A DNA stretch of 64,000 nt, taken from Lumbricus terrestris (taxonomy: Eukaryota; Annelida; Clitellata; Crassiclitellata; Lumbricidae). This document shows, piece by piece, positions 2,274 to 62,960 of this stretch (position 1 is the stretch's first letter; every line of letters begins with the position of its first letter). The notes beneath the pieces were generated by a model, which worked only from the letters and a program-made list of their open reading frames with translations, searched no databases and was not told the origin of the DNA. The stretch covers positions 85,292,987-85,356,986 of the forward strand of contig OX457036.1 of NCBI GenBank assembly GCA_949752735.1, given 5' to 3'. The translations under genes and the position numbers were made by a program.

Positions 2274-2406
2274 GCCTCTGGTGAGTGTTACTGTGGAGAA
2301 TCCTACGCTAAACATGGTCCATTGCCGGATTCTAGTTGCAACTTACTATGCCTTGGCGACGCCAGCGAAATATGTGGCGGCAATTGGGCGCTAAGCGTAT
2401 ACCTGG
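2274..2406 (+). CDS. Gene A exon: C-terminal half of WSC domain
   Basis: The acceptor is TGATGTAG and the donor GTGAAT; phase 0 to 1, 133 nt. It encodes the Cys-rich second half of a WSC domain, with GECYCGESY, a central CxxxC and the closing ICGG..SVY. It matches the gene B exon at 35517-35649 at about 35 of 45 residues, with the same length and phases. The partner first-half exon would lie upstream; I found none between 1 and 2273. Confidence 0.85.
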
Positions 2407-5400
2407 GTGAATATCTATTTATGTTATATTTACCTCCATTAAACTCAGTAATAGTTTAAATTCATCCTGTGTTTGCTCGAATAAACAAATTCAAGATGCC
2501 GATCACTAGATCTAGTTTTTCAACCGACAAAGGAACGAGGACAATGAGAGTGAATGAATTCATTTTCCATTTGAATACTGGATTTATAGGAGATCAACAA
2601 CTAAATCGATAGGTTCTACGTAACATCTTTGTGTCGCAAGGGTGACAACAATTTCAACGCTACTCGCCGACCTGCGAGCGCTTGCGGAAGGTAAAAGTTG
2701 AATATCTGACTGTTCTCACATGATATTGAAAAGAATAGGCTACTTTCTCGATAGATAAAATCGTTACGTGAGAGTCAAAGCAACAGAAAGTCTCATTTGG
2801 TGCGGTGGTCATGTGACCGTGGGCAAAGAATTGGCCCCGCACTCATAGTTGTTCATACCATAATATGGCATGCCGGTCAGGATGATCTGTTGACATGAAA
2901 TTGGTATGTGAACGTAATGATCAGCAATCAAAAGTGTGGAGTGGATATGGAACGTTAAAGAAACAAACGATCTTACAAGCTTAGCCTACAAACAAACTTA
3001 CTTTCGTTTTAATAGGTTATTCATATCGCACTTTTCCATGTCGTTAGCAACAATTCCAGAAACAAGAAGCTGGCCTACATAATCAGCCTATGATGTGAGC
3101 CTGACGTGTTGAAAAGTGAATGGAATTGGAACTGGTATTTTAAGTTCAGCAAAATTATTGCAGTCAAATGAGTAAGTTTCCTCAAAGTTGATGCATCATG
3201 AAAAGTCCATGTGCTGCATACACTACAGAGCAAAAACCTATAATAACAGTTGCCATTATTGGGGTTCATTTATCCAGCTAAGATCACTTTGCTTAATACA
3301 TGCTTTTAAATGACTGGGTCTGTTGCCAATGTTTCCTTACGCGCATAACTACCGCTGTGCATCTCTCTCTCTCTGTGTCTGTCTCTAGCCGTCTCTATCT
3401 TTGTCTGTGTTCTCTTGTTCCGCCTAGTCAGTGCTTTGTGTTTTGGAACTTATAATTCAAGTGAAGTCTGTGTTGGCTACATAGGCAGCATGGCTGTGCA
3501 CATGCTTACCATCAATCTATAATTGGAGTCAAAGAAGTCAATCATATAATAGGCCTACGTATAGGCCCACCTGAGTGCAACTAAAGGAATGATATAGTTC
3601 CAGGCCTACATGTGCTCGTTAAATTTATCATTTCAAAATGATAATTTTTGGATATTTTATGGTTTTAAACTTCATTAGTTATTTAAGTTCTGGATCAAGT
3701 TTTGAATTGCGATATTTTCAGCGTGTCCAGTCGGTTATTTCGGGAGTGGTTGCATGTCGCGGTGCAACTGTAAGAACGAGCAAAACTGCACTTGTGCAAA
3801 TTGCACTTGTTCATCAGGATGTAAAGCTGGCTGGATGGGCAACCGGTGCGAATTCAGAAGTACGTTTTAACTTTATCAGTAAATAATGCCTACCACTTTC
3901 AGAAGTTAACTTATTGAACATTATAATTTATTATGGCGTTGCTTCACGCAGGATTATAGCCTACATACTACATTTTCCCTATTATATTGACGGTGTACGG
4001 ATTAATGGTCATAGGAGATTGGTCATACGACTATCGGTCGATTGGGCATAATTTACAAGGATAAATTATCAATCAAAGCTATAATCATTTACTAGATCAT
4101 TAGCATGTATTGTAAAGTAAAATGCGTTAATCTCTATTAAACTTCTTGATTTACACTAATTATATAATTATGTCTAAAAATGCTGAATATGTAATGTAAT
4201 GTAAATCTTCGAGAATTTCTCAGCGCCCACAAAAGTCACATCAGGGAGACCAGCTTATTCACCGGCGCTATATCAAGTCAAGTCCGCAATAGCCAGAGCT
4301 GCCTTTTTCGTTCCGGTGCCAGGGCAAAATCCGAGGAGGTCAAGCCGAGGAGACAGCATGGTGCTACGGTGGTTGTCGGTTATTGTGGTAGTTGGGTGGA
4401 ACGGTTGGAACCTGATTAGAATCTGGATAGCATAGCTTGAAGAGTTCGGTTTTCAGTCGTGAATGGAAAGCAGCAGAGGAGAGTGCAAACGGGGGGAGAG
4501 GTTGAATTTGAAGGGGAGATTGGAGAGATAGGAGGATGAGCGAACAGTCGGAGGTATGTTGGGAGTCCGTTGTAATTTGTTGGTTTTAACTAGTTATTTT
4601 TGTGCACCATTCTGCTTATAGAAGATTCTTAATGACTAATAGCCCTTTGAGCGATAACTGAAAGCAATATAAATATTACAAAAACTAATATTATTAATCC
4701 AGAATTGATCAAATCTAGGACTAACAGTAATATAAAAAACTTGATCATAATTAAGTAATTAGTGGGTCAGGAAATTATATACTAATATCATCATTGATAT
4801 CGAAGATGGTTCTATAATCTATAATGATTGGATTCCCAGTCCCATTTAACACATCTAGATCTAATGGTTGATGACACGGGTCTCCAACTCATCTAATAAG
4901 TCGTAATAACAAGGGAACTGGGGAAAGACTAATCCACTTAAATATAATGAATGCCTCGATAAATGCGGTTAAGTCAAGGTGAACTCAACAAGCCATTGTA
5001 ATTATCATGACATTTAATCGTACAGAAATAATAGATATTAAGATAATAAGTGTTTAATAATAATAGCAAGTAAACCTTACAATATTATTGAAGATTCCAC
5101 TAATCTTCCTCCAATCTACAAATCCCTTTATTCTACTAATCACCGATCACATGCTAACCCAGATATGAGAGATTAAAGTTAATATTACGAACCTCTCTAT
5201 CCAGCAAGCACGGAACCCAAACGATGTCAAATTGTAGTCGAGTCCGTCTGTATATTGTCGTGTCCTTAGTTGCACGGACCGTGTCCAGTCTATAGGTCCA
5301 GGTTGGGTTGATTATGCAAGGTAAGGCGCTTATATAGTAGAGTCGGTAGGAGGCGATAGCAACTTCCAACCAATCGCATCCGGAAGGTCTATCCTTCTAG

Positions 5401-8400
5401 GCTGCAATGGTACCTGTCTGGAGACAGGTACCATTAATGTATGATTGAACTCTTCCCTTGACCAATGGATCTATCCATATACTAATCCTTAGCTTAGGCA
5501 TTAATATATATATATGCAATGTATATATATAGATATGTATTTTCTTCCTATGATAGTTCTACAGACACAGGTCAATCCGCCGTTGATGAAAGCTTTATCA
5601 ATAATCTAATGAACCAGCTTATACTCCAGAATTATTTTGATGTCATGGCTATTTTCTTGTTGCATCTGTCTGTGGCTACGTAGCCAAGGACAAACAATGC
5701 TTGCTTGGAATTTGGTCTCACAGTTTGCTTGAGAATGCTCTCCGCAACGGATATTTCAAATAATAATAATAATAATTACGGCAATTTATATGGCGCAGTA
5801 ACACAGAAGTGTAATAAGGTGTATGAGTTGCTTTATCAGGCCTATCCAGCGAGACTGGGTCTCTTTTGGGCTTTCCCTTTTGCAGCCATCAGAACGTTTT
5901 AGCTGCTAATTTGATAAATTGATGTGTACCGATTTTTTTAAAACTGTTCAATGCATTCATTTTATCGCTCTGCTACTTTTCTACACTCTAGAATGACAAT
6001 ATCGCAAATTGATTGATAAGTCAATTTCAACAGATAGTAGGCTAAACGCATGATTATGTGAGTAGTAAGAGCATAATTTTTAAAAGATTGCAGTGAGAAC
6101 AACGGAGACTGCTCACTAAACGAGACATGTGTCACAATTGACCTGAGCTTCGCATCTGTATCCCGGTGTAGCTGCAAACAAGGATATCATAAGAGACGAC
6201 TGTGGGATGAATGCACAGGTTGGCGACAACAAACACTATGTAGCCTACTCTGTGGAGTTCTTGACAAAAGAGTGACTAATATATTTTAGCGGTCGTCGAT
6301 CAGGAATGTAGGTCTACTCTTCGCTGTAAAGTCTGTCGATTGAAATTTTAAAAGAATTTGAAATAGTTATTATTAGTGCAATATTGTGTTGCTACTTATT
6401 TCAAAGATTTAGCCATGTCATCGAGTTCTGTGAGTTTTTTTCTCTTGCTCAATATCCGCATCGCGTTTACGAATAATGTACCATACGTAAGTGATTCTCT
6501 ACTTATTCCAAACAAAATCAATGTATTAAAGTTATTATCTTGCTAACTGTTTGTTCCCCTAGTTGGCTACAAATGTTTGTGAAATGCGTTAATTCACATT
6601 CTCATTCATCTTTCCGAGTAACACAATTAACAGTAGCGATGTTGCTTTAAGTATGGATAAAAAGTCGGTGGCTATGCTTATCGCCTCTTTCTTCTAACAA
6701 GAATTGAAGCTAGGCAAAGGTGTGAAAAAGCAATTTATTGTGAATACTAGGCCTATACTTGATTACTGTCAACTCCAGATTTAGACGAGTGCGGCATTGA
6801 CATGTGCGACCCTAATACTACGAAGTGTACCAATACCATTGGTAATTTCACCTGCGACTGTCGACCTGGATATGAACGAGTAAACTCGACACACTGCAGA
6901 GGTGGGCAAGCGTAAAACCAATGGTAATTCCTTGGTTTATCTGCGAAGTAGTTTTGTCAGATTTCAAGCCTACAGTACTATTTGGCCTAAACGTATAATA
7001 TAAGTCAAGCCCAATAATATTACACGTGATAAACGTTACGTTTGGTATCGCTTGTTTGGTTTCTCATTGGAGATGAGCTTTATTCCGACCGAAATTAGTT
7101 GATAAGTGTATGATCCAGCGAACTGTTTCAATGGGCCCAAACTCATACGGAATTCAGCCGTTTCCATATGCTGTCTCTTACAACAGAATTGTATTGTATC
7201 GTATTGTATTGTATTTGACCATTTATGAAAGTTTCTCGCAGTAAGTGCCTTTCAGAAGCGCTCCCAGTGCGTGCAACCTCGAGAGAAAAAAGCAGGTTTT
7301 ATGGCGAGAGAAAGATGATTATAGACTACTAGAAAGGATAACAGAGCTAACTGATGGTGAAAGTGCATTCCATAGGGAGGGACAATGATACAGGATAAAG
7401 TATACATTTCTATGAAAATATCTTGATGCATGTTTTTCCATTAATCAAAATGTGTATGCCAGGGTTCAAAATATAATTGAAGTTCCAACCATTACCTTTA
7501 TCGCCTGCCATCTTTACTCAACAATAATTGAACATTTGGCTCAAGAAATTACAATGAGTTGTCTGTTTCAACTTGCAGATATAGACGAGTGCATCGTTGG
7601 TCTGTCGCAGTGCGACCCTGATACTACGAACTGTGTCAATACCGTTGGAAAGTTTACTTGCAACTGTCAAGCTGGGCATGAACGTGTCAACATGACACAT
7701 TGTAAAGGTAGGCATATGACATTCATAGATTATAATACAGGGTGGGCCAGCATAAATGTCCCGACTTTGCAGGCGTATAACTTCGCCAATTTTTAACATT
7801 CATTTATACCTAATGCATCAAATTAAAGGTATTTCACTCTAATATTAACTCTAAAAAGTCGAACTGATACTAGTTTAGGTTTTAATTATATACTTGGAAC
7901 AGCGCAAGCTACCCTTTTTTGGTCATTACTGACGCATTGTGACGCCGTTTCCCTGGGAAATTCTATCGTTTTTTGCTAAAACGCGCGTAGACACGATCAT
8001 TTTGGATGTTTGTAGGGTCCCTGCCATGAATATCTTCTAATCGCAAAAACCACGTCCTTTCAATTTTGCCAACAGCCGTGCACTGCCATGCGCTGCTTCA
8101 GACGCTTGCACGCTGCCAGCCGTTTCTTTGCGTAAGAGTTGGAGAGCTCGTTGGACTTCTCGTCGACGAATTACTTTAACTTTACGTCTATAATCTTTTC
8201 CAATACGTTATGCAGTGCTTCTAAGACTGCCTGTTTTGCGCTGAATTTGCATGCAGGGCCTGCCCTGGTCATTGTCTTGACTGCACATGTACGCGGACAC
8301 ACGAGCAATGTTAGCGGATGTCGTGCGCTCCGTTTTCCATGGTTGCGAGTAGAAAGTCCTGTTTTATCAATTTTCCGTAGCAGATAATACAAGGTATTGT

Positions 8401-11400
8401 TTATTCCATCCTCTGTTAGAATATTTTTTAATCATTTCAAATGAATTAGATCCCTTATCAGTTCGTAAAATTAAGATCGAAACGCGATCATCGTCTGTCA
8501 ACGGCGCCAGGTTGCGTCACAAATGACAACAAAATATGATAGCTAACGTTGCTCCGGGCATAATAATTAAAGCCTAGACGAGTATCAGTTAGACTTTTTT
8601 AGAGCTAATACTAGAGTGAAATACCTTTAATTTGATGCATTAAGTATAAACAAATGTTAAAAGTTGGCAAAGTTATGCGCGTGTAAAGTCGGGACATTTA
8701 AGCTGGGCCACCCTGTATATAGGCCTAATGCCTATCAATTCAATATAAATAACTGTTTCGCATACGAAAAATGGTTATCGATATGTGTTGTGCCTGATTT
8801 TTGCGTTGGAAAACTAAATAATTAAATTGGGCTATGTAATCGGGAAACATCTATAATCGTGATCTTTCTGCTAATGTATTTGTTATGACAGTCTTATTTC
8901 GGCGGTTTTGAGTTGCAAGAGTGAAACCCACATCATACGGCATACATCGGGTCAGCACCCAAGCCACTTGAGATCGTGGCTCCTACTGAGAATTTAAATA
9001 GCAGGAAAGTATAGCTACAATCGAAAACTTCAACACGACATATAACATAGCAATTTCGTCCCATATCTACACTCAACTCAACTGCATTCATTTTCATGTT
9101 GAGACCTGTTTTAAACAATGACGTGTTTGTCTTTTTAGATATTGACGAATGCGAAATAAATCCTAAACTATGCAATTACACTAATAGAGAGTACTGCAGT
9201 AACACCATTGGGGGCTATCTCTGTATCTGCTATATTGGATATAGCAGAAGTGAAATAAACAATACATGTGAAGGTATTTTCAGATTGAATCGTGACTGTT
9301 CTTAGATCTATCTTCATCGCACAATAGAATTTCGCATTAGGCATAATAGCCGATAACAGTATAGGCTAAAAGTTTTCTTACTTTGAGTTTTTAACTTCGA
9401 TAGGTTAACAGTCAAATGCTTTCGAAGAGACTTCTCTTCTAATGTACACAAATGTGCCTACCAGTTTCGATGATTTTCACCGAATTGTCCCTGTGTCAAA
9501 TTTTTGTCCCAGCAACAAATCATCCCTGCAACAAATTTCCTCTCGCCAGATTGTCGCTGCGACAAATTGCTCTGCTCCAGTCGTGAGATAGGCTTCAATA
9601 ACATAGACCTATTAAGCTTTCTGTGTTATTAACTGAAATGAATTAATGCGTTTTTGTAAATATGCACATGGTCTATAATTAGCCTTATCTTTCCAGGAAT
9701 ACCTCCTACAACCTCATCCACAGGACTTCAGAGATCATTGGATAACTGCCAACAAGGTTACGAGCGACACTTTGATAAACTCTGATTAAACTGATCATCA
9801 GAACTAACAAAGGAGAAAACGCAATAATTGCTAGGACAGAGCCTATATCTAATATAACCCAGTCAATATTTTTTTTAATAGTTTATAATAATATAAATGT
9901 TTTTAATATGTCTATAAAAGAAAATTTGATTCCAAATTTAGGCCTATCCGAGTCATGTTATGATAGACTAAACAATCATTTCAGAGGCATCTCAAACGTG
10001 ACAGCACAAAACTACGAAGCTACGATCATAGCATTAATGATATTCAATCACCTATACGAAAACCGGTAAAAGATATGAAAAAAGAAAGAAATAATTATCT
10101 GCGTCCAAGTTTTACATTCGTATGTGTAAAATTAATAGTCTAAGTAATTCATTTCCGTACCCGGTTCTCTATGAGCTTCAAAACATTGGACATGAATAAA
10201 ATCATAAATTGATATATGGTAGTACAGTCCTATACTTTAAAATCAACTCTCAATAAGGTTGTGTAACAAAGCAAAAAATAATTTTAGTGTATTCTGTTGG
10301 AGTCGTCATCGGTGCTGCAGTTGGTTCAGCGGTTGGATCGATCGCCATCTTTGCCATCATCCTCGTCGCTGTCGTTTTATGCAGGTAAGAACAGTTGAGA
10401 TAATTAACACAGCGTTTCTTTTTAAATAGGCCCACACATGTAGGCTCTATATTTTTTATAAACGCCTGTAGGCCTATTTAGGAATTTTGGGCCTATAGCC
10501 CTATAGGCTATATCTAGATCCATGAAATTGAATAATTATATAAGTATACATGTGTGTGGAGTAGAGTTTTTTATTTGCTGTTTTGCTATTTTTATTTATA
10601 CTTTAATTAGGTCCTACGCCAATTTTATACTTGGTTTTCAATTATTGTGGAAACATACGAGTCGTATTCTAAAGACGATGTTGATATTATATAGGCGTAA
10701 TTGCAAATATCTACTGAGATAAGAGGCTAACAGACGCATTTAAATTGACTTTTATGATCCAATCTGAGTCGACTTGAATTAAGTTAACAACAGTTAAAAT
10801 GTTTAAGTTTTTGGCGCAGGCCTTTTAGGCCTACGAAAGCAAAGATTTCATTACTTCAACATCTAGATTGCCTAGGTCCCCTGTAATGATATTATTAATA
10901 AAATGCAGCTAATAAGAGATTGAAATTGGCAGCGAAAAGGTCTAAATTCGTTTGTCCAAATATATCAATTGATTGGTCAACAGAACAGTGTCATAGGGAA
11001 AGTTTCAGAAATGTGAAATAACGAAATAGGCTAATAACCTCACCTCAAGTTTATTTATGTTTGGAGCAGAACTGTTTACATAGCTTTGAAATTTTACATA
11101 TTGGATATAGGCTAGATTTGCATGTCATTGACCGTCGCTGATCAAATAATAGGCTACACTGCGCCATTTCGAAGGCTCATTTCGTCTACAACTCTTCATG
11201 TAGAACATGTTTTGAAATTTCAAACATTTTGGAGTTTGCTGGCATTTAGGTTTCCGTACCAGACTTAATTAGGCCTATTCATCGTTCTTACCAAGGCTGT
11301 TAACAATTTGAAATTGTTCGCAGGTAACCAGTGTCGAGGTAACTGCTTCTTTTCTGATCTGTAATCGAGTCTAGTATATATATATATTGTAGCGGAACTA

Positions 11401-14400
11401 GGTTTGGGCAATTAACACCAGGGACCGAACCCCAAACCCTAGTCCTGTCGGAATCGTCCGTCTGTGCAGTCCGGCGTCAACTGAAGATTGACGACTAGCC
11501 CGTCAGGCTTGAAACTCATTTATTCACGACGTCAAAGAAGAAACTCGTACTGCAGTTCTCGTTCGACTTCTATAGCGCCAGCAATGTTCGGAGCAATGTT
11601 CGGAGCAATGTTCGGAGCACTACCGTCTCCAACCACTGCACTACTGTTCACCGCAATTGTCACTGTAGGACGCCGAGTCGTCTTCCTGTAGATCACCGCT
11701 GCCTCGCCAGCGCACGCAGAGAGTCCGTGAAGCGGGTCGGGTTTCGAACCCGATCGTCGTCAGATGCGGAAGGTCGCCAAACCTTCCGTCCTCACCAGTC
11801 GGCAGCGTCGGCAGGTCCGGAAGCTGAACCACTGCGCTCACCCGGTCGGAAGCGTTGGCAGATCCGGCGTTGAATCCTGCCCGTCGTGGCACAGCGACGA
11901 TCACCGATCCTTCGGTCGTCCGTAGGCGTCGGGTTGCAGAAGAGCACGACCGCGGGTCAAGAATCGAACCCGAGTCGACAGTGTTGCACCGCAAAGGCCT
12001 CCAAGCCTTTCGTCGTCGGCAGGCGCTGAATTTCGGCAGCGTCGTCAAATCGTCGTCCTGCTCTCCAAAGCGTTTTTCCTCAGACGATTTCCTGCTGACT
12101 GCACCGCGATTCGATCCCGCAACGCTCGACCGACTCGTCTTTCCACTGTGTCACGGCGATTCACTGACTGTTTCTTCCGATCACTGTGTTCCTCGAAGAC
12201 TGACGGCGGCTGACTCGAAGACTGTTTCCTTCGATGACTGACGTTCGATGACTCACTGCGGCTTGCGCGCACACGTACTTATGTGTCACGAAGCCACGCC
12301 CAGTACATGTAGACATAGGCTAGAGGTAGACATGGGCTAGAAGTAGACATAGGCTAGGTAGACACAGGCTAGAGGTAGACATGGGCTAGAAGTAGGCATA
12401 GGCCACGCCCATTTCATGTAGACACGGGCTAGGTAGACACAGGCTAGAGGTAGACACAGGCTAAGTAGACATAGGCTAGGTAGACATGGGCTAGGTAGAC
12501 ATGGGCTAGGTAGACATAGGCTAGGTAGACACAGGTACCCAGGCGGACACGGGGACGGTCATTCGAATAAAAATTAAACCACATGACCCTGATTTCCAAC
12601 AATATTAATAGGCTATATATTAGGCTACTAGGCTAGGTTTACACAGACCTATGGAACGTGTAGGCCTACGTCTGCAACTGGGTATTTTGTCTGGTGCGGA
12701 CTACAGACCTAGGTCATAATAATAGCCTAGGTCTAATGATAATAACATCATTCTTAGATTTGAATGCCATTATAAGTTCGTAGCAGCGGTGAGAGACTAG
12801 TGTTCGGTTTATCGGATGAGCGCATGTTCCTGAGGGCATAATATGGTTTTGAATGAGATCGCAGATGCATAAAGGAGTCACTGGAGACACATCGACCGTT
12901 AGTGAATAAGCTGGTGCCCTGCGTCTGGCTTTCGAGTAGCGCTCTAGAAATTTGCAGGTTGGCCACTGGTGACGCTTCACCCTGCCGATCTGTGTTAGCC
13001 TAGGCCTATATAATAATCATCTAAGAGGTTCTTTTTACGTATGGCGACTCAATGGGCTAATATAATTGCAATATTAATCTATTTTATTTTAGACGAGGCC
13101 AGCAGAGGAAAAACTCTGAAGGTAGGATTTCTTTTAACATAAACAGGCCAGGGCCATAGCTTAATAGTCATTTTAATAGCAAACCGAAACATTGATCCAG
13201 CAGGCGTAAAAAGCCCTGATGTTTCATTCGCGTTAAAAGGCCTACTCGTACAATGTATAGTGCCATTTCCTTTTTTCACTCTCATGACTTTCGACTTCAT
13301 AATCAGGCCTTTGACCAAAGACGTAACATTGCTTCACAATGCCGTGGTGAACTAGTCTATCCATCCCTCCGTCCACTTCCCCCTATGGGGCCGTCCATAA
13401 AGTACGTCACGCTCCAGGAGGGGGGAGGGGGTGTAAGAAAGTGTGACAGTTTGTGACGGGGGGAGGAGGGGTCAGGCCATATGTGACGTCACATATTTAT
13501 TTTTTAAATTCTTTTATATTTTTTGTTCTTAGTACCTAAAATCCGACCCGGCCCGGCCAGGCGTGTCTAAAACCCGGCCTGGCGGGATAAAAGTTGATTT
13601 CCCGTCACTATCAAAGCGTTTAGGGACACACGTCTCTATCAGAGGGATTAGGGATAGTATCCTAGGGTTTAGAGGGTTAGGTAAATGGTTATGTTTTTAA
13701 AAAAATTCCCGAAAGTGTGACGTACTTTAGGGGGGGTCCGAGATTTGTGACAGTTTGTGACAGGGGGGAGGGGGGGTCAAAAGTAAAAAATGGTCAAAAA
13801 TAGCGTGACGTACTTTATGGACGGCCCCTATCCTCTTTTCCTTCTTCCACTTTCCATCTCTCACCATTACTCAAAACACCCCAGTAGTCCTATGTGAATT
13901 TTATACTCTTTGTTCGTCACTTTAAAGTCACTCGTTGAACTATCAGACAACAAAGTACAGGTAGGTTAGACATCTACATTCTGCTTGAAACATAGCATAT
14001 TGTGGACGACACTGATAGGCTTACCACTAATTAAAGGCCTGCTTGTTTCAACTCAAATAACGGGACAGCAGGCTTAACAAAACGGTTACGACCAAACACC
14101 ACTCTCATTACAAAAGTGGGGTAGGCTATAATACGCCTGTGCTTTTAGCCATCATCAATATCTCACTCAATTGCTCCTCATTATATAGACCTGACTATAC
14201 TTTGTTCAGCATTTGGTCTACGTCATTTACATGTAGCCCAAATATTTTTGTCTTTAGAGAAAGCTGTAATATTATTGAACAATGATCTGTGCAGATGAAA
14301 CAGAAAATCGCCCAAAGGAAGTGACTGATGCGAAGGCGGAACAACCAATTTCGTTATCCACATATGAAGCATTGAACAAAATGCCCAAAGAATACGACTC

Positions 14401-14482
14401 TACTTACACAGAACTAACTGGTAACGGCCATCGACCGGAAACAACTGAAACCAGGAAGAGATATGAAACTGGCACTCCATAG
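2274..14482 (+). CDS. Gene A: WSC/EGF single-pass receptor with short tyrosine-motif tail (5' part outside window)
   Basis: Ten exons assembled by eye (2274-2406, 3722-3859, 6087-6218, 6779-6901, 7579-7707, 9139-9273, 9697-9756, 10288-10384, 13093-13121, 14295-14482) join in frame to 1164 nt, 387 codons plus stop. Order: C-terminal half of a WSC domain, MEGF-type EGF, a second EGF, three Ca-binding EGFs, a Thr/Ser stalk, a membrane helix, and a tail of about 70 residues. The product should be a type I cell-surface receptor; WSC domains are generally thought to bind glycans. There is no kinase or phosphatase domain. The tail has four tyrosines, two in STYEAL and STYTEL. The first half of the WSC domain and a signal peptide are not visible upstream. 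The ectodomain is a tandem duplicate of gene B. Domain calls are seen in sequence; the signalling role is inferred. Confidence 0.85.
3722..3859 (+). CDS. Gene A exon: MEGF/Tie-type EGF module
   Basis: 138 nt, phase 1-1, acceptor TTTTCAG, donor GTACGT. It encodes ACPVGYFGSGC followed by a CNCKNEQNC stretch and GCKAGWMGNRC, the Cys spacing of MEGF, SREC or Tie-like EGF repeats. The predicted protein is identical to gene B exon 36636-36773, with only two synonymous differences. Confidence 0.88.
4210..4560. repeat. Repeat with ACCAGCTTATTCAC motif, copy 1
   Basis: Shares 'ACCAGCTTATTCACxxGCGCT' with 62500-62700, and a shorter match near 41340-41420. Probably LINE-tail derived; family uncertain. 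Absent from the aligned intron of copy B. Confidence 0.5.
6087..6218 (+). CDS. Gene A exon: EGF-like module
   Basis: 132 nt, phase 1-1. It encodes a six-Cys EGF-like module (CSENNGDC, NETC, CSCKQGY, DEC). The acceptor TTTTAAAAG has a weak pyrimidine tract, but the gene B counterpart (38034-38165) has the same boundary and length. About three residues differ between the copies. Confidence 0.82.
6779..6901 (+). CDS. Gene A exon: Ca-binding EGF 1
   Basis: 123 nt, phase 1-1. It begins DLDEC and contains NTIGNFTCDCRPGYE, the classical Ca-binding EGF signature: acidic N-terminus, Asn hydroxylation-type site, aromatic residue. Acceptor CTCCAG, donor GTGGGC. Two Asn-X-Thr/Ser sites suggest N-glycosylation. 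Confidence 0.9.
7190..7440 (-). mobile_element. LINE 3' tail fragment
   Basis: Starts with a (GTATT)n/(GTATC) tail and then 'CAGAAGCGCTCCCAGTGCG', the reverse of the conserved LINE 3' end seen at 33176-33250. Also present in copy B (39500-39590 and 39735-39850). Confidence 0.7.
7579..7707 (+). CDS. Gene A exon: Ca-binding EGF 2
   Basis: 129 nt, phase 1-1. It starts DIDEC and carries NTVGKFTCNCQAGHE. It corresponds to gene B 40074-40205, which has one extra codon. The donor GTAGGC is followed 30 bp later by a mariner element absent at the matching place in gene B. Confidence 0.88.
7738..8715 (-). mobile_element. Mariner/Tc1-type element with N-terminal transposase remnant
   Basis: 978 bp between TA duplications, with inverted ends of about 100 bp starting CAGGGTGGGCC. 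The - strand holds a broken N-terminal transposase region (ACKFSAKQAVLEALHN, KKRLAACKRLKQRM, then KHPK and QNDRVYAR) with stop codons. The C-terminal catalytic half is missing. The matching place in copy B is empty. Confidence 0.85.
9139..9273 (+). CDS. Gene A exon: Ca-binding EGF 3
   Basis: 135 nt, phase 1-1. It starts DIDEC and carries CSNTIGGYLCICYIGY. It matches gene B 40688-40822 in length and pattern but is clearly diverged. It is the last EGF of gene A; gene B continues with two more. Confidence 0.88.
9697..9756 (+). CDS. Gene A exon: Thr/Ser stalk
   Basis: 60 nt, phase 1-1, acceptor TTTCCAG and a weak donor, GTTACG. It encodes a PPTTSSTG juxtamembrane stalk between the last EGF and the membrane helix. 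If the donor is not used, the frame reads nine codons further to a TGA at 9783-9785, giving a secreted form. The boundary rests only on phase agreement with the next exon. Confidence 0.55.
10288..10384 (+). CDS. Gene A exon: transmembrane helix
   Basis: 97 nt, phase 1 to 2. It encodes VYSVGVVIGAAVGSAVGS and then a run of Ile/Ala/Val/Leu, ending CR: one hydrophobic segment of about 28 residues with a small-residue GxxxG-like face. Acceptor ATTTTAG, donor GTAAGA. Same phases as the gene B membrane exon. Confidence 0.85.
10385..11387 (+). other. Intron sequence without recognisable features
   Basis: AT-rich, many TAGGCCTA/TAGGCTA words. No exon or repeat family recognised. Confidence 0.5.
11388..12601. 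mobile_element. Candidate solo LTR or composite GC-rich element with tRNA-like boxes
   Basis: Begins TGTAGCGG and ends CCAACA, flanked by ATAT on both sides, which is weak evidence because the left side is a TA run. GC content is far above the flanks. On the - strand there are four box B-like cores (near 11738, 11865, 11950, 12110), an A box-like GAGCGCAGTGGTTCAGC (about 11823-11840) and stem-loops resembling anticodon arms. ORFs across it show no domain. It could equally be a pile of tRNA-derived SINE heads. Confidence 0.45.
12309..12535 (+). repeat. Minisatellite of about 14 units of GTAGACATAGGCTAG
   Basis: 15-17 bp units differing at CATA/CACA/CATG and ending GCTAG or GCTAGAG. One unit is interrupted by a CCACGCCCATTTC segment. 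It lies inside the element above. Confidence 0.9.
13093..13121 (+). CDS. Gene A micro-exon: basic stop-transfer segment
   Basis: 29 nt, phase 2 to 1, acceptor TATTTTAG, donor GTAGGA. It encodes RRGQQRKNSE, a basic segment just inside the membrane. The equivalent gene B exon (46660-46721) has the same phases and similar composition, which supports this very short exon. Confidence 0.75.
13387..13828. mobile_element. Non-autonomous TIR element
   Basis: 442 bp with perfect inverted ends GGGGCCGTCCATAAAGTACG, continuing about six more bases, flanked by TAT on both sides. The interior has G-rich arms and GTGACGTCAC. No coding capacity. DNA transposon superfamily not certain. Confidence 0.85.
14295..14482 (+). 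CDS. Gene A terminal exon: cytoplasmic tail with two YxxL motifs
   Basis: 188 nt from acceptor TGTGCAG to the TAG at 14480-14482. It encodes 62 residues, hydrophilic, with tyrosines in STYEAL (14357-14374), KEYDS, STYTEL (14399-14416) and KRYETG. Both S-x-Y-x-x-L motifs fit the ITIM consensus, and the YxxL spacing of ten residues fits the broader ITAM consensus. The second has Asp at -3. No PTP domain follows; the next similar PTP sequence belongs to gene B. Confidence 0.85.
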
Positions 14483-14719
14483 CAACTTCCTGCAAACGTA
14501 CTTGGCAGAGACACTAGCCAAATTTATGAGGATGTCGGATAACGCATACATTATTCAACAGTTCACTGAGAAAAAAATTGTTTAAAAATATGGTCTACAC
14601 TACCTTATTTGTCATAAGAATTTTTTTCTAATTATAGAAGCACCACCGTCTCTCACAACTGTAGCTTAAAATTACCATAACTTGTTAAGCTGTCATCTTA
14701 TCTAACAAAATTACTAATT

Positions 14720-15080
14720 ATTTCAGTGCTCAGAGACGAGTTCTAAGACTTCAATACATGTCTCCTCCCATTATTAAGAACTTTTTAAACTTGCACACTG
14801 CAATAGTATAAATTTAAGCTGACATCTCAATAAAATTTCTCGTAATTTCATTTATGAAAAACCATATTTAAGACTTCAACAAATGTCCCCTCATATTTGG
14901 TTAAATTTTTTAATTTCCACACTGCAATGGCAGCCTTTTATTTAAGCAGTCATCTTAACAACATTACTCATGGTTTCAGTGTTCAGAGATGTGGTTTAAG
15001 ATTTCAATAAATGTCTCCTCCCATTGTTTAACAATTTCTTGCACACCGTAACGGTGGCACTGTGAGCTGTTATCTCAATG
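14720..15080 (+). repeat. Three-unit tandem repeat of about 125-130 bp downstream of gene A
   Basis: Units begin near 14723, 14847 and 14978. Each has a TTTCA start, a 'TTTAAGACTTCAATAAATGTC' like core, 'CTCCTCCCATT' and 'CACACTGCAATGG' like segments. Sequence between units is diverged. It lies in the probable 3' UTR of gene A. Confidence 0.6.
14829..14834 (+). promoter_or_regulatory. Candidate polyadenylation signals of gene A
   Basis: AATAAA occurs here, about 350 nt after the gene A stop, and again at 15006-15011. Both lie inside a tandemly repeated 3' region, so each repeat unit may carry a signal. Actual cleavage sites cannot be told. Confidence 0.4.
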
Positions 15081-15099
15081 AATCTGTTAGTCATGGATT

Positions 15100-16620: not shown

Positions 16621-16621
16621 C

Positions 16622-46500: not shown

Positions 46501-47588
46501 CAAGTCCCCATCAACATTGTGTTTTAAAGGATAAAGAATAGTGATGGCCTCATTTTGTTCTTCAGAGTTCGTTCATTCGCTGATTTGAGTAGCGTGCTTT
46601 TTCTTTGTCTGTTAGTTTAATAATAAAAAAACTAAAGTTACTGCAATTTGTTTCTACAGACAAAGTCGTAAAAATAAGCCTGAAAACGATATTGCCGACA
46701 ATGTCCGAGTCAAGTCAACAGGCGAGTTACTATGTTAAAAAAGTTATTTCGGTATGAACAGCGTTGACTATGTAAAAAATTTGCTTCCGTGTGTAAAAGT
46801 GTTACTTATTGCGGGATGGTGCAGGAAGAGTAATAATTCGACATTTAACTTTGCACATGTGTTGCAATTTATCTATGCAGCCTAGGCGCTATTCTTACAC
46901 AACTTTCACTCATAAACCTATCCGTTCTCGCCACGAAAATCAAGACGGGTGATTTAGTCTTTTCGGATGGTTGGCCCACGCGCATGGACTTGTCTACCAA
47001 CACCCATTCAAGAAAGAAAACCCATCTGCGTTTCTTTCTAATTTTGCGCTTGTAGATATCGATCTCTTAGCATTTACGCTAACCGTTGACAGCATGCTTA
47101 CCGGTAGACCCTTATAAGGCATTCTGGAGTACCCTGCTACTGACGATATGGAAGTGGTCGTAAATACAATACAATACAATACAGTTTATCTATCCATGCC
47201 TCTATCAGGAACTCTGTTTATCTGCACCTGCCTAGGTATACAAATATTAGTGTTAGTCCATTCCGTTGTCATTTTTGTATTATAGGCGGGGGTTGATAAT
47301 CCCAAAACTATGTTAAGACATCAAACTGTTGGCTTAGCTGTCAATGCACTTAAAAGCTCAGACTAATCCTTGATTTCAAACATTTTCAGTGTTTTGAGCC
47401 GTTAGTCCGATCGCTCTGCAACTTGCATGTAGGTGTCACTAGGTGAATATCATGGTGTCAAAACGTCCAAATTAAACGTCCAGTCAAATTATCTGGATTT
47501 TGCGAATGATTATGTCACCTGTGTTTCTTTTATTAAAGCCATGCCATTGTTAATTAGGCTACCGTGACATCCGCCTGCAACACATTAC

Positions 47589-47632
<44 letters not shown>

Positions 47633-50600: not shown

Positions 50601-53600
50601 AATATTAATATTGTTGCATTGCAGTTACAAAATTTACTGCTCACTTGCATAATAGGCATAGTCTGCTACTTGTTTTCCTCACCGATGTCTATTTTTTAAA
50701 GCATTTAAATTTATTTCCTTGGGGTTTACGTACTCATAATGTCTCTGATTAGTCATTATGCGAGAAGCAATACATGTACCATTGTACCTATAGTTACGAT
50801 ACAATTCTAGAACTCTGTTTGCTGCAGGACCTCGTGCTGAAACCGTGAAAGATTTCTGGAGAATGATTTTTGAGAAAGATATTCGGCTCATTGTAGTGAT
50901 AACGAAATTGGTAGAAAAGCAAAAGGTAGGCTAATTATAATTGTTAACTGAGTCAGGCATAAGTGACGTTGAAATTGCAGGAATAGACCTATGGCTTAGG
51001 CCTGTCTAACGCATGCTAGATTTATTAGATTGACCGAACATTTTACTTCACCGAGTTTACGCTTAACACAGATGCACAATATGTTACTATAACCCCGCAT
51101 ATGCATATATATAGACTTATATAAAATAGTCATTACATGATATGCCCTTCGCAAAGAAAATTGTGAATTTGCACATTTCTAAATTTAGCTTACTCTAAGC
51201 GCATACTTGTTACTATAGCAACATTGAATGGTCTTTCATATGCGATGCTCCTTTTTAGTTACTATTAGACACGAATATTGCAACCAATGAACCATTCTTA
51301 CATTATTGAAACTGTCGAAACTGTTCACGTCAAGTAGACCTAAGCTTACACTCATCTTTAGATTATGCCAGAGTGATTGCCTGTCCGCATAGCTGTTGTT
51401 CATCTTCAAATTGTCTCTTACCAAGTCATTATTGTATTGCATTGTATTGTATAAAAGCAACTGTAAAGGTATTAGAGCTGTGCTAACACAATTTTTCATT
51501 TATTCAATGTGTTAAGGTTAAATGTGAGAAGTATTGGCCTAATGTCGGGGAATCCGTAGTTTACGATGACATGACTGCAACAACAAAGTCCGAAGATTCT
51601 TGGCCTGATTACACTGTGAGGCAGATCGTGGCAAATAAGGTAAGCTGATTGACACTCGTTAATGATTCTGTAGATCTATAACCGTTACATAGAAAACACC
51701 TAAAGAGCCCCGTGAGCTAGAGCTTCAAGAAGCAAGTCCGAACATTTATGGCTAGCCATCAGAGAAAAAAACACTTGATTAAAAATTGTTTTCAATTAAA
51801 ATTCGCAGCTTAATGGATAATATTGGTGTCTATGTCACATCGAGTCTAGTGATTTTCCGTACATATGAAATCAATTTTTCTGCTACCTAACTGCCTTAAT
51901 TTGGTCTTGTCTGTGCAAGCACAGGTTTGCCTCAAAGTATGCATGTGCATTAAGCCTAGGTAGACTTCAGTGGTATGATGTATTTAAACTATTACCATTT
52001 AGCATGAGGTTTAGGATTACCAAGACTTTAGTATTAACCCTCAGGCTACCAAGCTTTTTTTGTAACACTGACTACCAAGGGGGGGGGGGGGTGGTTACCA
52101 CCCCCCCTGGATTTTGGGTTGGGTTTGAGATATCATAACTTGTAATACACCATTTGATTCAGCATTCATTTCTGCACAAAATGGTATATTTAGGTTTAGA
52201 AAATATGAATGCCCCTCGAAATTATGAATTTTTTACCATGGGTACCCGTCGATTCCACAAAATGTATACTTACGCATAGGAAATATATTAGATTCTGTGT
52301 GTTTTATACATGATTTATATATAAAAGGTAGTTTACATATAATAAAGTCCAATATTCAACTATAAAAACTAGTAATAAGTCTGTTTTATGTTCAATCAAA
52401 ACAAAAAACATGTTTTTGCCGCTGAAAAACGTTTACGCACACATTTCGGCTTGCGTTGTAAAAACCCCCAACATTTTCAGACATTTTAATTTATTTTGAG
52501 CACTTCCGGTCATCAAAAAACAAATTATTTAGTATCAGAAAATAACCCTAAATGCCCTCTACAGAATGGCATAATTTATTTCTATTAAAAAATAAATTAT
52601 GGATAAGTTATAATAGAAACAACATGACAATTTTATGAAAATAAAACACCTTTATATATATTTCAATTTATTTTGAGCACTTCCGGTTGTCAAAAGACAA
52701 CTCAGTGAGCATGGAAATGTAGCCCCACATTCCCTCTATAGAATGGTATAATTTGTGTATCTTAATATTAAAGGGCGGAAAAGTTACAGACGATATTCTA
52801 GGGGGGTGGTATTTACCCCCCTGGTACCTTTGGTATATCGGGTGTAACTTTTGAACGGTAGGGGGCATCATCAAAAGTTTTACCTCAAAATGTGTCCCAA
52901 TGAACCCTCTACAGCTACCAATTTTTTCAAAATTTTATTCCAGACGGAACGCGTTTGATTTGCGAAAAACCTAGGGGGGGTGGCAACCACCCCCCTTAGT
53001 AGCCCGAGGGTTAAAAAACTTGAAACTTGAAACTCGATTGCTTAAGACTGACAGATGTGTAATGCGATCTGACAAAATCAGGGTCATGTTGCACGATAGC
53101 ATTGTTGAGATAATAGTCGGTTTTATAGAAATTTTGTGTTTTCAGAATTCTCAAGTAATTGAACTGGTGCAGTGGCATTATATGGCTTGGCCAGACCATG
53201 GAGTTCCTACGGACGCCAAAGGCTTCCTGGAATTTCGTAGGAAGGTCCGCCAACATGTAATGCCAGATAAATATACCCTTGTGCATTGCAGGTAAAAATT
53301 GTTGGATTGTCTTATTTTTCTCAAGCTTTAATTATGTAATAATTAATTAAATAATTATGTAAATTAATGTTACACAAAATGTCCCTTATGTATAAAGTAG
53401 TCAATTACACCATAACATCATCATCAGCTAACAATGCTTTAAACACAATACGCAGTAAGCTGGCCGATCCGGAAAATCTGAAGAGAGAATTTGAGGTAAG
53501 ATGCTAACGCATAGCATTGATACTTCTTGTTTTCTTAATCTTCAAGCGCAACACCGGTAAGTGGACCCAACATTGAAGGAGGAACAATCTAACCTACAAT

Positions 53601-56464
53601 TATAACGTAGTTGTATGTGTGCATGTCCCATGCATGTCGTGCACATGTCAGCACATATCATTTTGCCTCATAGGAAGGTACATGTATAATATGCAATGTA
53701 CGTTTTGCACGAATGGATGCCAATCACTTGATGTCAGCGCAGCGTTCGACACCGTAGATCATGGCATCCTGCTAACGAGATTACGAACATCATTCGGAGT
53801 CGTCAGTGGGTCCATTCCTTTCTCAGTGGACGTCAAATGATGGTGGTCGTCGGCTCTGGAAATTCATCATGGGCGCCTGTAACATTCGGTGTCCCTCAGG
53901 GCTCAGTCCTTGGGCCGCTGCTATACGTGCTATACACAGCCGATTTGACAAGGATCATCTCTGCTCTTGGAGCCCGGGTCCACCAATATGCCGATGACGC
54001 TCAACTGTACTTAACGTGCCACCCGTCTGATGCACTGACCTGTGTGTCAAAAATGCAGGAAATTGTTAAAGAAGTACAGACCTGGATGTCCTCCAACCGG
54101 TTGAGGCTGAACCCGGACAAAACGGAATTCATATGGCTGGGCACAAGTCAGGCACGCTCAAGGATTGATGCTCAGGCGATTGAGGCGGCGTTTCCAAACT
54201 GGAAGACCAAGCGTGTTGTTCGGGACTTGGGAGTACTGCTGGTTGAAGACCTATCCATGGATCAGCATGTCGGATCGCTCTGCAGGTCTTGCTTCTACCA
54301 ACTGCGCCAGATCAGAGTCATTCGGCGCAATCTGTCACATGAGGCCGCTGCCACTCTTGTCCACGCGTTTGTGCTGAACCGACTGGATTTCTGCAATGCC
54401 GTCCTCGCTGGTCTCCCAAACTGCCGGATACGCCAGCTTCAGTCTGTCCTCAACTGCGCCGCCCGAGTCGTCGCTGATTTGCCCAAATTCTCGCATATAT
54501 CAGCATATATGCGTGACACGCTGCACTGGCTTCCGGTCGAGGACAGAACAACATTCAAGATCATTGTTATGGGACGAGCGTCAGTGGTTGGCCTGGCGCC
54601 AGAATACATTAGGGAACTTTGTATTCCCGTCTCCAGCCAACCAGGTCGTCGGTCTCTGCGCTCTGCGACTCGTGGGGACTTGATAGTCCCACGCTCCTGC
54701 ACAGTGATGCGGACACGCCGCGCCTTCTCTTGTATTGGACCTTCATTCTGGAACAGTCTTCCATTGGAAATTCGTGATGCTGCGTTGTGTGTTTCTCATG
54801 AAACATTCTCAAAGTTAATTAAGTCGCACTTGTTCAGAACTGCCCGGTAGCTGCGTTAAGCGCTTTCGTGAGGTTATTGTAAGGCGCTATATAAATGTTC
54901 ATATACATACATACATACATACATACATACTTGAATTGGCAACACTAGACTAGAGGATGCCAGAGTAATAAATTCTACATCCAAATGTTTCTCTTACTCT
55001 TGCAGTGCAGGCGCTGGAAGGACCGGTGCTTTCATCGCTATTGATTATCTCTTGGAACAAGAGAAATTGGAATTCGATGTTGATGTCCATAGTTGTCTAA
55101 AACAGTTGCGAGACCAACGAGCGTCAATGATTCAAAACCTGGTATATACAGATTAATAGCCATATGCTATAATAGGCCTATGTTAGAAAACCGCCTGTGC
55201 TGTTATTATATAGATTAACGCATAGTCATATTATATGCGGTGGATGAAAGTAGGATATAATTAGCCTATATTATATATTGTAAACACAGTGGAGTAGCCT
55301 ATCTATGGTATGGTTGAACCTTAATTGCGTTGTCTGACTAAATACTACATGGTTGAATGTCGAATCAGATCATTATGAAGACAATCGGTGAAACTTTTGA
55401 CAATGCCTACTGTACACTCTTAGATTTATAAGGGACTGTTTGCCACAGGAACTCTCGCTGCCCTATTTAATATTTGACTGTTGGCTCGCCAACATTTTAA
55501 TCGTTTACGATTTATCAACAGACACAATACTCAGATAACAAGCTGATATGCACACTTCCTTTTTGAAAGCGGTTTTTACGATCCGCAGTCAGAAAATCAG
55601 AGAACGTCAATTGTAGCATAGAATATATATATATAATATATATGTTTTGTGAATTATATATGATTTTATATATAATATAAATTATATGCACAGTTGCGCA
55701 CTCAGCGCCAGTTGGATGGAGAACAATCAACTTGTGAAACTTCGGATAAATTACATTTACTGTGAAGCATCTAACTTCGCATGCTTTGCTTTTACCATGT
55801 AATTTATAAGACTTCGGAATATGTTTTGTGACTTATTTAGGCGCAGTATCAATTCGTTCATACCGCCCTTCTGGTTGCTTTCACGGTTGGCGACACGGCA
55901 GTTCCAGTTGAGCGATTTCTCTCAACTTATAAAACTTGGCAAGAGAAGAAGAGTGAAAGTTCTGATAAATCGATGATAGAAATACAGTTCGAGGTAAGAC
56001 GAATTCATCTATGAACGAAGCATCGACAAAATAACATCAAATAACATCAAAATAACATCAAAATAACATCAAAATAACATCAACCAATGTTGCACAAAAT
56101 GTGCCTTTATGCACCAAACATCAACCTATGTTAAACTATCAATGGCATTTAATGTAGCAGTTAGGATAGATTTTTTTTCTTTAGACTGAAAAGTAGGCGT
56201 CCACATAATAAACTTAGTCGTAACCAAATTAGCGATTGCTTGGCGGTGCTATTCAGTCAATGTCGTGATATAAATATCTGAATAATCGTAATTAAAATAA
56301 TAAAACTGTATAATTATAAGCTTAAAAGCTTTGACGATGACTGTAATGATGATTTGCTGTAACGATGGCGCCAATGATGCGGAGAAGGAAGGAGAAGAGA
56401 AACATGATTGATGCTGAGGATGACGAAGCTATAATGATGGCATATTTGAGCATTTTGCTGCTGC

Positions 56465-56495
<31 letters not shown>

Positions 56496-56510
56496 GAAGA
56501 AGAAGAAGAA

Positions 56511-56556
<46 letters not shown>

Positions 56557-59500: not shown

Positions 59501-62500
59501 GAGCTCAGTGAGTAGGTATTCGGTTTAATGGATGGAAGAATAGAGTTATCTGATTCTTAAAGTTAAACCAATGATGTAATACAGTTAAAGAACGTGGTAA
59601 ATTACAATAAAACTACAGATAAATATGGTACAGTTATCGAGATGCTTTATCTTTATCCAAGTTAGATATTTTTTATTTGAAACGTGAATTTTGGTTTTTA
59701 GTCTCAGTGATAAGCAGTAAATTGTAAATTGGCAAAAGTGAGGTGGGAACACCAGGCTACTCAGCATGTTTTGTATCATACAATAAAATTATTATGTATT
59801 TTTTTATCAGAGTTGGAACCGGAAGGATGCGTACATATCAATGAAGTTGCCAGACTCTCCTACCGATTTCTGGTCTCTGTGCAAGGAACAGAAGAGTGTC
59901 ATTGTAGTCTTTATAGGAAGTCCAACTCAGGTAAACCTTATGCAACTAATGTAGCAAATTTTTATATGGATCATATCTCTTGGTCTGACCTTACTGATTT
60001 TGCTATGTATAGTAACATTTTAAAATGCAATTGGGATTGAGCATTCCTGATAAACGTAGTGCTGTTCTAATAAAAAATATTTCGCAATCAAAGATAAAAC
60101 TCACTATTGCTATTGGTTTTTTGTGTCATAAAATTATTTGGCTGACCCAAATACAGGATTTCAAACAACGTAATGAGACCTGGTCCAGTGGTTCGCTTTA
60201 ACAATAACTGAATAAATCTTATAACATCAGTGGAACAATAGGACAATAAAGAATTGTACAGCAGTGAATTAAACACAAATTTGGGAAAATGAATCGGCAT
60301 TGTTATTAGATCTATTAGTCTGAATGAGAATTATATACAACGTATATCGGCCTGCACAAGAAAGGACATGTGAAACATGCTAATTGAACGCTGGCTGTTT
60401 CTATCTTATTCAAGGATACAGAGGTTCAGTTTTTTCCGACAAAAGCCAAGTCGATAGCTTGCAAAGATTGTACGATGATATGTGAAAGCGAAACTTCAGA
60501 GGACTTTGGTTCACGTCTCGTTGTAACGGAGCATAAGAATTCTGACGATGTCTACGCAAATGTTTCTACACAATCTACAGATATCTACGAAAACGCTGTG
60601 AGTTCAAGCTCATTAGAAAAGAAGGCACAACTGTTCACAAGTCCCCACCGAAGAACATGGTTCAAAATTATTTAAAGTTGGCACACCAGTATACGAATAT
60701 GCCTATAATAGGCCTAATATCTTACTTTTGGTCAAATAATTATTTATTTAGCAATCTACTTCAATTATCAACCATAAAATTATATTTACTAAGTATCTCA
60801 TAAAGATTCGATTTCAGAGATGCACGATATTCAGCAGCATTGATATTTATGGTTTTTCTTGGCAATGAACAGTAATGCTAATAAGTACGTCTTCTAGCCA
60901 TCATAGACAATATCCATGTTGCCTTACTAAATCGGATAATTGTGTAAGACAAATTAAATATTATTGCTGGAGAGCGGGGCTAAAGAAAGTACTTGTGGTA
61001 TAATTATTAATTAATTAATTTTGGTGGTTCTAGCCTATTGCAATTGTAATGACTGTCAACCAGGTAACGCATGTGACCCAGTACATGCATATGTTATAAT
61101 TATAGGCTAATTATAATGGCGGCAGCAGATTTTTTACTGTGACGACAATGCAACTGCCAGTAGTTATGCTAAATTAACTTTGTTGTTTTTTTCTATAACA
61201 AGGGACAGAATTCGATACCAACTCAAATTACAGTTCTACAAGTTACAGAACCGATGACTCTGAGATGTGGGGATAAAGATTCGCTCTTTTCATTGCACAA
61301 GGCCGTTCAAATCGCGACATCAGCCGATAATAATTCCTGTCCAGTTATGGTGGTCACCAGGTAGGCCATAATAAACATAATTATTTACTTTATAAGTCAA
61401 ACCATCCTTGTTGTCTCCACTAAGACGCCAGTAGACTTAGGGGTCATATTGTTTTACAATTAAGGTGGCTTTAACTGGCTTAATTCCTGTTTAATGAGCA
61501 AAACTATTACTTCTAATTGTATGCATTATATGTACATTTAATTTAGCCAACTAAATTGATATTTCAACCAGAGCACTGAATGTTACATTAAAATGTCTTT
61601 CTAGGGTTATACTTATGTTAATAAGCATTAATCTTTTGCCAGGACATCCTGATGTGAAAGTCATTACAATAAATACGGTAGTCGTAATGTTGTTTATCCT
61701 GCTTACAACGTCTTACTCAAGCGTGCTTTAATGTACTTTTTAGAACTGACTGTTCTTTGAATGGATTCTGTTTGGCTGCCTTCAACGCATTCGAAATGAT
61801 GGAGCACGACAAAGAAGTTGATCTTTACCAGATTGTACTCAACATAAGAAAATCAAAGAAGGAACTATTTCAGTCACTGGTAAATAAACATGTACGGTAG
61901 TAGACTAGGCTAAGATGTTATTCGCTTAGATCCACCTAGAAATTAGAATGCATCGTTTATAATTATACTGGAGGCGAGCGCAAAATACGAAAACTTGTCA
62001 CATTAAAAGTATGTAGCAAAACTGCAATCAAGGTTTGAAAAATAACTTAATTTTTCGAAAGCCTGCAGCGCAGTGGCGTAGACAAGGGGGGTTTCGGGGT
62101 TAAATCCCCTCCATTAGCCTAGGAAAAGTTGTTCAAAAGGTTATTTATTGACTTAAATAATTTAAAAAATTGTTGGTAGTAGCATTATTGTTTTTCTTAC
62201 TTTATTTCCTTTGTTACTTTATTCATTTTTTATTTACTATAATACTGTTGGTTTGGTGTCAGAAAGGGCATCCTGCCAGGCAAAAAAGAACAACCTCCCA
62301 TCATAAATTTCTGGCTACGCCACTGCTGCAGTGACGCCGTTGAGTAATATTAGTAAATAACCTACCTGCTCTGCTTTCTTGCTGCATATTCCAAGGTGAA
62401 GATTCAAATGTCTTGCTTATTGAAGTCGATTGCATTCAAGGATATACAGCAATAATTTATGATACATGACTGTTATTCGCAATCGTAATCTCCAAACTTC

Positions 62501-62960: not shown

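Follow-up and report, generated by a model that had tools for sequence, protein, structure and literature searches.

Two neighbouring genes on contig C1 of Lumbricus terrestris raise the question of whether receptors with a common outside and opposed insides, as in the paired receptors of vertebrate immunity, have also been built from WSC and EGF domains. We analysed a window of 64,000 nucleotides (C1 85292987-85356986; positions without prefix refer to it), and genome searches were carried out on the 1.056-Gb assembly of 331 contigs. An earlier note on this DNA had described tandem genes with a duplicated ectodomain block, the first (gene A) ending in a short YxxL tail and the second (gene B) in a receptor tyrosine phosphatase with an intact first phosphatase domain (D1), and had read them as paired receptors.

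Two tandem genes with a common head

The duplicated block was confirmed by self-blastn of the window, in which 1756-9400 aligns with 34978-40953 in six collinear pieces. The exons in common encode WSC2, a laminin/Draper-like EGF domain, a further EGF domain and three calcium-binding EGF (cbEGF) domains; their phases match and they contain no stop. Outside this shared block the earlier note needs correction: gene A begins 10.6 kb 5' of the window, and gene B begins at 22456, with a second WSC and EGF preceding the block on which the note relied. The common head of A and B has the order signal peptide-WSC-EGF-WSC-EGF-EGF-cbEGF. In both gene models the phases of the exon joins fit, no inner stop occurs and the borders are AG/GT except at two weak sites in B. 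Pfam analysis of the full models found WSC in two stretches each (73.5 bits in A and 75.4 bits in B, against a curated cut-off of 27.8) and EGF_CA three times in A and five times in B. The EGF_CA matches of both proteins and the Y_phosphatase match of B also exceed their curated cut-offs. For WSC, KREMEN1 is the closest solved structure.

The model of gene A comprises 15 exons on the plus strand encoding 598 residues, with exons 1-5 located upstream of the window (C1:85282359-85290573). Exon 6 carries the second half of WSC2 (2274-2406) and is followed by the Draper/laminin-like EGF exon (3722-3859), which has 100% amino-acid identity with gene B, an EGF exon (6087-6218) and three exons for EGF_CA domains (6779-6901, 7579-7707 and 9139-9273). 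The stem exon (9697-9756, GIPPTTSSTGLQRSLDNCQQ) lies in DNA matching T6 and T4, two other genes of a tail class described below. Next come a transmembrane exon of this class (10288-10384), a basic juxtamembrane exon of 29 bases (13093-13121, RGQQRKNSE), conserved in T4 and T6, and the tail exon (14295-14482, stop codon at 14480-14482), which encodes YEAL-x10-YTEL. The tail exon was first picked by splice score and phase, and the basic exon scores 19.7, the next candidate in that interval reaching 12.3. Both exons are confirmed by homologous DNA in two other genes.

Gene B, also on the plus strand, was modelled with 23 exons from 22456, whose frame of 897 residues is uninterrupted up to the last D1 exon located. 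It was extended upstream using a related protein, P0005, which placed WSC1 at 25800 and 26329. The signal-peptide exon (22456-22534), homologous to an exon upstream of A, is the sole exon passing the filter between 14.5 and 25.8 kb and contains three alternative start codons. The head continues with the two halves of WSC1 (25800-25951 and 26329-26461), an EGF exon (31107-31241) whose relatives were used for counting heads, the two halves of WSC2 (33411-33544 and 35517-35649), the Draper/laminin-like EGF exon (36636-36773), an EGF exon (38034-38165) and five cbEGF exons matching EGF_CA (38728-38850, 40074-40205, 40688-40822, 41594-41722 and 43217-43342). The transmembrane exon (46140-46254) is uncertain, its acceptor scoring -1.8, and the juxtamembrane exon at 46660-46721 needs a GC donor at 46721. 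Juxtamembrane and D1 are encoded by eight further exons (47847-47974, 48992-49079, 49749-49825, 50141-50177, 50828-50925, 51517-51639, 53146-53291 and 55006-55141). The model ends there, exons between D1 and the second phosphatase domain (D2) and at the 3' end being unplaced. A copy of the juxtamembrane exon, 85.7% identical to 47887-48017, is found at 53399-53533, inside an intron that separates two D1 exons.

A transmembrane segment followed by a D1 with KNRY-, WPD- and HCSxGxGR-type motifs identifies gene B as a receptor tyrosine phosphatase. All catalytic motifs are intact (KNRF, YINASY, WPDHG and HCSAGAGRTG), D1 matches Pfam Y_phosphatase at 1e-69 and the best solved chain is PTPRA (4e-108), which upholds the earlier description of this domain. 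Pieces of D2, with approximate borders (59829-59930, 60421-60540, 61224-61355 and 61745-61879), match PF00102 over its second half (8e-6). The signature of an active phosphatase domain is HCSxGxGR. With TDCSLNGFC at the site of this motif, D2 of gene B is predicted to be catalytically inactive.

Database searches revealed one close relative of the complete arrangement. P0005, a JGI protein of 686 residues, is organized as WSC-EGF-WSC-EGF-EGF-cbEGF-transmembrane-phosphatase and has 42% identity to B in a shortened alignment. Among the best 120 of 846 matches it is the only protein labelled with both WSC and phosphatase. It differs from gene B in its truncated D1, and no tail-class partner is known for it. 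A profile search returned 21 proteins, with P0005 far ahead and the rest of EGF or phosphatase type. When WSC2-EGF alone was used in a protein search, none of 51 candidates reached E<=0.001.

An array of receptor genes on one strand

A receptor array on C1 has at least 50 members, A and B among them, and all those counted lie on one strand. With the exon of gene T1 equivalent to the 31107 EGF exon as query, at least 50 copies were found at E<=2e-7 within 3.01 Mb, 50 out of 50 on the plus strand and without a stop; this is a lower bound from scoring 150 of 170 candidates. Before insides were assigned, 21 of 71 rows were left out: 20 were weaker than 2e-7, seven of which lie in the array, and the remaining, stronger row belongs to contig C308. 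At least one of the omitted array rows comes from a gene that the count already included, being another of its EGF exons. The C308 exon (C308:5916-6047) scores the same as that at C1:83817639 (57.6 bits each) and perhaps represents an alternative haplotype of the array. WSC matches number at least 91 in the genome, again a lower bound (150 of 288 candidates scored), with 69 of these between 83.83 and 86.80 Mb of C1, all on the plus strand.

Phosphatase D1 was located at 18 places in the array (all 142 candidates of the genome search were scored) and tyrosine tails at nine. When each D1 or tail is assigned to the nearest upstream head, the 50 heads divide into 16 with a phosphatase, nine with a tail and 25 without an assigned inside, a split that is approximate because one assignment reaches across 107 kb and because two D1 places fell to each of two heads. 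Ten of the 35 D1 half-matches on which the 18 places are based contain a stop. Some of these stops may sit past the end of an exon; this is the case in gene C, where the reported D1 stop falls outside the exon as mapped; intactness was read in B and C only. The pair is not isolated but belongs to an array of at least 50 members. The note's reading of a shared head on different insides gains stronger support than the note itself could offer, from the chimeric structure of A and from the pairing of T2 with C shown below.

Several runs of heads (C1 83.78-83.93, 84.34-84.51 and 85.77-86.10 Mb) are free of D1 and of any recognised tail, and possibly carry a third kind of inside. At C1:85412176-85416029, the last two D1 exons of B and the following intron have been copied partially, with 83-92% DNA identity; no head exons were seen in the sequence examined between gene C and this copy, which is counted among the 18 D1 places. 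Beyond the array, clusters of WSC, EGF-exon or D1 matches occur on C17 (7.73-7.80 and 34.82-34.83 Mb, minus strand), C4 (13.95-13.96 Mb, minus strand), C5 (19.24-19.36 Mb), C10 (22.28-22.36 Mb) and C1 (13.54-13.89 Mb), which suggests relatives of the receptor family. All three features are matched near 7.73-7.80 Mb of C17, and at least one of the three in the other clusters. A WSC search of 14 control genomes gave no match, which says little on animals.

Gene A joins a B-like head to a tail-class inside

Comparison at the DNA level revealed that gene A is a chimera, its head resembling that of B and its inside that of the tail class. From -10976 to 9400 its DNA matches gene B in chained pieces that include introns (71-90% identity), and from 9401 to 14658 it matches the tail-class genes T6 and T4 in pieces (70-86%). 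The switch at 9400/9401, in a phase-1 intron that separates the stem exon from the last cbEGF, corresponds to 40953 in B and to C1:85259079 in T6. Control comparisons yielded no match between B 40954-46700 and A 9401-15000, and matches at two exons only between T6 85252000-85259100 and A 1701-9400. The exchange may have run either way, bringing a B-like head onto a tail inside or the reverse. Local identity between A and B introns ranges from 79 to 90%. As an exception, 2.4 kb of the first intron of A (-8837 to -6493, C1:85284149-85286493) match the T6 locus at 66%, while both flanks match B.

A similar association across classes was found in a tree of ten heads, where A groups with B (98/97, ultrafast bootstrap/SH-aLRT) and the tail-class T2 with the phosphatase gene C (98/98); the program warned that T2 and one other row are long branches meeting P0005. 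The starred branches of this tree force at least three class changes, against a mean of 2.8 for shuffled labels. Class changes are therefore no fewer than with shuffled labels, and head and inside are uncoupled among these ten rows. The transmembrane tree sorts the classes except for gene F, but its bootstrap is unsettled, it has no starred branch, and 76 of 500 shuffles are equally good. Gene F joins a phosphatase-type cbEGF and transmembrane segment (cbEGF DNA 74-87% like that of C) to an ITAM tail. It is nearly certain that this large array combines shared heads with two kinds of inside, and that heads have been exchanged between them.

The tail class has a conserved pair of tyrosines

The tail class consists of nine exons, that of A and eight others. 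Both tyrosines are kept throughout, and both +3 residues in seven of the eight others. The ITAM consensus Yxx[LI]x(6-12)Yxx[LI] is matched by eight of nine tails, the exception being T1 with a proline as its first +3 residue; only T6 shows the narrower x(6-8) spacing. Shuffling the A tail gives the pattern in 0.24% of cases, which is not a fair p-value, as the pattern was chosen after seeing this tail; the independent test is its recurrence. The loose pattern often arises by chance, occurring in 96 of 6462 open reading frames of at least 25 residues from both strands of 264 kb (53 of 3199 plus, 43 of 3263 minus). A stricter form ending in YTxL occurs in five of the 6462, and all five are tail exons.

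The members were collected by several routes. Queried with the A tail exon, the genome gave six matches from six candidates, which share a single region of C1 and the same strand: three strong ones (A itself, T4 and T6; to 3e-17) and three weak ones (E 0.12, 1.9 and 6.6). The weak matches are backed by open frames, aligned tyrosines and a second query, as the F tail lifts T0 to 7e-12 and T2 to 0.001. T1, T3 and T5 were missed by the A tail query and were recognised from their position, a profile or the motif (E 0.012 for T3 and 3.7 for T1); the T3 tail in turn detected T5 at 2e-20 but no additional tail in the array. Since three tails escaped the A query, the 25 heads without an assigned inside may hide more.

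The tail of A stops earlier than those of T4, T6, F and T0 and is devoid of their further tyrosine motif; a terminal YE[DN]V-type motif, present in T4 and T6, is absent from A. Since the A tail can be read as two ITIMs as well, its signalling could be of either sign. In the class as a whole the first motif is readable as an ITIM in four of the eight ITAM-fitting tails (A, F, T3 and T5) against ITAM spacing in all eight, which favours the ITAM. An idea that the A tail is the juxtamembrane part of a lost phosphatase, based on a weak match to P0005, was dropped because of the tail-class relatives.

A candidate paired-receptor system with a built-in phosphatase

Paired receptors have evolved repeatedly as a solution to the problems of self/non-self distinction and pathogen decoys. 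Those of vertebrates (KIR, SIRP, PIR, FcR-like) are clustered and have near-identical heads with different insides, the heads being exchanged by recombination. Their inhibitory partner recruits SHP through an ITIM, and the activating partner usually borrows an ITAM adaptor. All paired receptors known to us have Ig or lectin heads and recruited phosphatases. The array resembles the vertebrate systems in its clustered similar heads on different insides and their exchange by recombination. It differs from them in its WSC/EGF heads, in an ITAM-type motif in cis and in the built-in phosphatase: the vertebrate inhibitory partner carries an ITIM, whereas none was found in the juxtamembrane part of gene B, which carries a phosphatase domain instead.

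We consider it probable that A and B are members of a paired-receptor array, in which heads have been recombined onto ITAM-like or phosphatase insides. Heads, which end in one or more cbEGF domains, are joined via the phase-1 intron to either an ITAM-type tyrosine tail or a receptor tyrosine phosphatase, and recombination in that intron would have placed a B-like head on a tail-class inside to give A, or the reverse. The tail tyrosines would be phosphorylated by a Src-family kinase and the phosphorylated tail read by a Syk/Shark-type kinase, as for Draper-I (PMC8092387, PMC4503800), leading to activation. A B-type receptor engaged alongside by the same or a similar ligand would strip the tail phosphates with its D1 and so inhibit; inhibition would be exerted in cis by a built-in phosphatase, instead of by an ITIM recruiting SHP. 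Judged from the domain content, a paired activating and inhibitory function is likely, and an immune or adhesion role, a ligand, expression and opposed signalling of A and B are presumed. There are also receptor phosphatases, CD45 for example, that can act in favour of signalling, and a CD45-like promotion by the phosphatase class is possible.

More tentatively, we propose that the array is a paired-receptor complex of about 50 genes and 3 Mb that belongs to neither the Ig nor the lectin families; the receptor's own phosphatase would inhibit, a cis ITAM would activate and WSC/EGF heads would be shuttled by recombination in one phase-1 intron. It would be a candidate immune or allorecognition complex. 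We know of no such complex that uses WSC/EGF and built-in phosphatase parts. A search of the open PMC literature, with subscription journals outside its scope, gave nothing relevant by title or abstract for WSC and receptor phosphatase together. If the proposal is true, the paired-receptor design can arise from other parts, with WSC/EGF heads and the phosphatase in one class; D1 acting on tail phosphates under co-engagement would be a directly testable two-component system, and population and expression studies would have in the array a large region with a candidate role in immunity or allorecognition.

Invertebrate receptor complexes with related tails have been described. According to the accounts cited, FcoR tails of the Botryllus fester/FcoR system carry an ITIM, a hemITAM or a core Yxx[ILV] (PMC12065747), and ITAM/ITIM motifs are reported on candidates of the Hydractinia Alr complex (PMC11999971). 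In these accounts the heads are of Ig/sushi type and no member with its own phosphatase is mentioned, whereas gene B has one.

A different relationship is suggested by the engulfment receptors. An EMI domain is a feature of Draper, MEGF10 and CED-1, and we know of no WSC in these proteins. Pfam found no EMI match in A or B, and the A tail is without NPxY. As described in the reports cited, Draper-I has an ITAM and Draper-II an ITIM acting with Corkscrew (PMC8092387, PMC4503800). The group resembles the array in combining an EGF-type receptor with an ITAM and in having opposite outputs on one head, but differs in deriving them from one gene by splicing, in recruiting the phosphatase and in having NPxY. 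The genes could be a large tandem adhesion/engulfment family, with tails signalling like Draper and phosphatases regulating adhesion, and no antagonism in pairs. This is consistent with the existence of EGF receptors with an ITAM (Draper/MEGF10) and of a phosphatase eraser for Draper in the same reports, and with an oyster protein (Crassostrea P0129) that, like gene B, joins an EGF-type head to a receptor phosphatase; unlike B, P0129 shows no WSC or EGF_CA in Pfam at E<=0.1. We regard this explanation as unlikely, since exchange of heads across classes is seen in paired receptors and would be unexpected for two independent families.

Divergence of the heads and the nature of gene A

Over 466 codons the heads of A and B differ by dN 0.073 and dS 0.165, a ratio of 0.44 (bootstrap 0.29-0.66). 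Restricted to the six window exons, one method gives 0.58 (0.34-0.92), whereas YN00 gives 1.0 (0.105/0.105). Aligned introns are 16% different, with 104 indels in 3322 bases, and the six exons show a single indel in 790 bases, in frame. The absence of stops is weak evidence, having a 7% chance under drift. Two observations speak against constraint: WSC2b diverges in a neutral-like manner (dN 0.131, dS 0.136), so that a common ligand for A and B is not assured, and cb2 and cb3 have only 66-67% identity.

These data bear on what gene A is, if it is not the tail-class partner of our preferred paired-receptor reading. It would rather improbably be a phosphatase-less decoy or dominant-negative copy with idle tyrosine motifs. 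Such a copy would agree with the shortness of its tail relative to T4, T6, F and T0 and with the weak likeness of this tail to the P0005 juxtamembrane (10 of 5000 shuffles as good). Against it, the inside of A comes from the tail class, in which eight other members keep both tyrosines and tail dN/dS is 0.22-0.87 across the seven pairs computed (T0-F: dN 0.34, dS 1.53), and with D1 as query no remnant was detected in the window near or downstream of A.

The earlier note had itself raised the possibilities that A exons splice into B and that A is a decayed copy. We judge it very improbable that A and B are one transcription unit, with A exons as alternative 5' exons of B. Ectodomain exons run mostly from phase 1 to phase 1, which makes splicing from A to B possible; at the sequence level, however, it is disfavoured by the signal-peptide exon of B, homologous to that of A, owing to which A need not splice into B. 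A also has its own transmembrane and tail exons, followed by a polyadenylation-type signal near 14829. Decay is likewise disfavoured at the sequence level, by the open frame of the head and by the tail class in eight further places. The signal exon of B and the open head of A (dN/dS 0.44) thus argue that A is neither the 5' end of B nor a product of plain decay.

That A is neutral birth-and-death debris, with no maintained function, is hardly credible: array members turn over, as exemplified by the partial D1 copy at C1:85412176-85416029, but no frameshift occurs in 790 exon bases, where one neutral branch would give about ten (about 12 indels; P about 5e-5), the cysteines from WSC2b to cb1 are identical in A and B, and P0005 agrees with A at three and with B at two of 18 sites that differ between them.

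Rfam and tRNA scans of the window were empty. Long open reading frames resembling non-LTR reverse transcriptases, named by eye, sit both within and between genes A and B (16547-17753, 22744-23378, 27035-29958 on the minus strand, 32046-33188 and 53732-54847), and a mariner-type transposase-like frame, likewise named by eye, lies in an intron of gene B (41885-42493).
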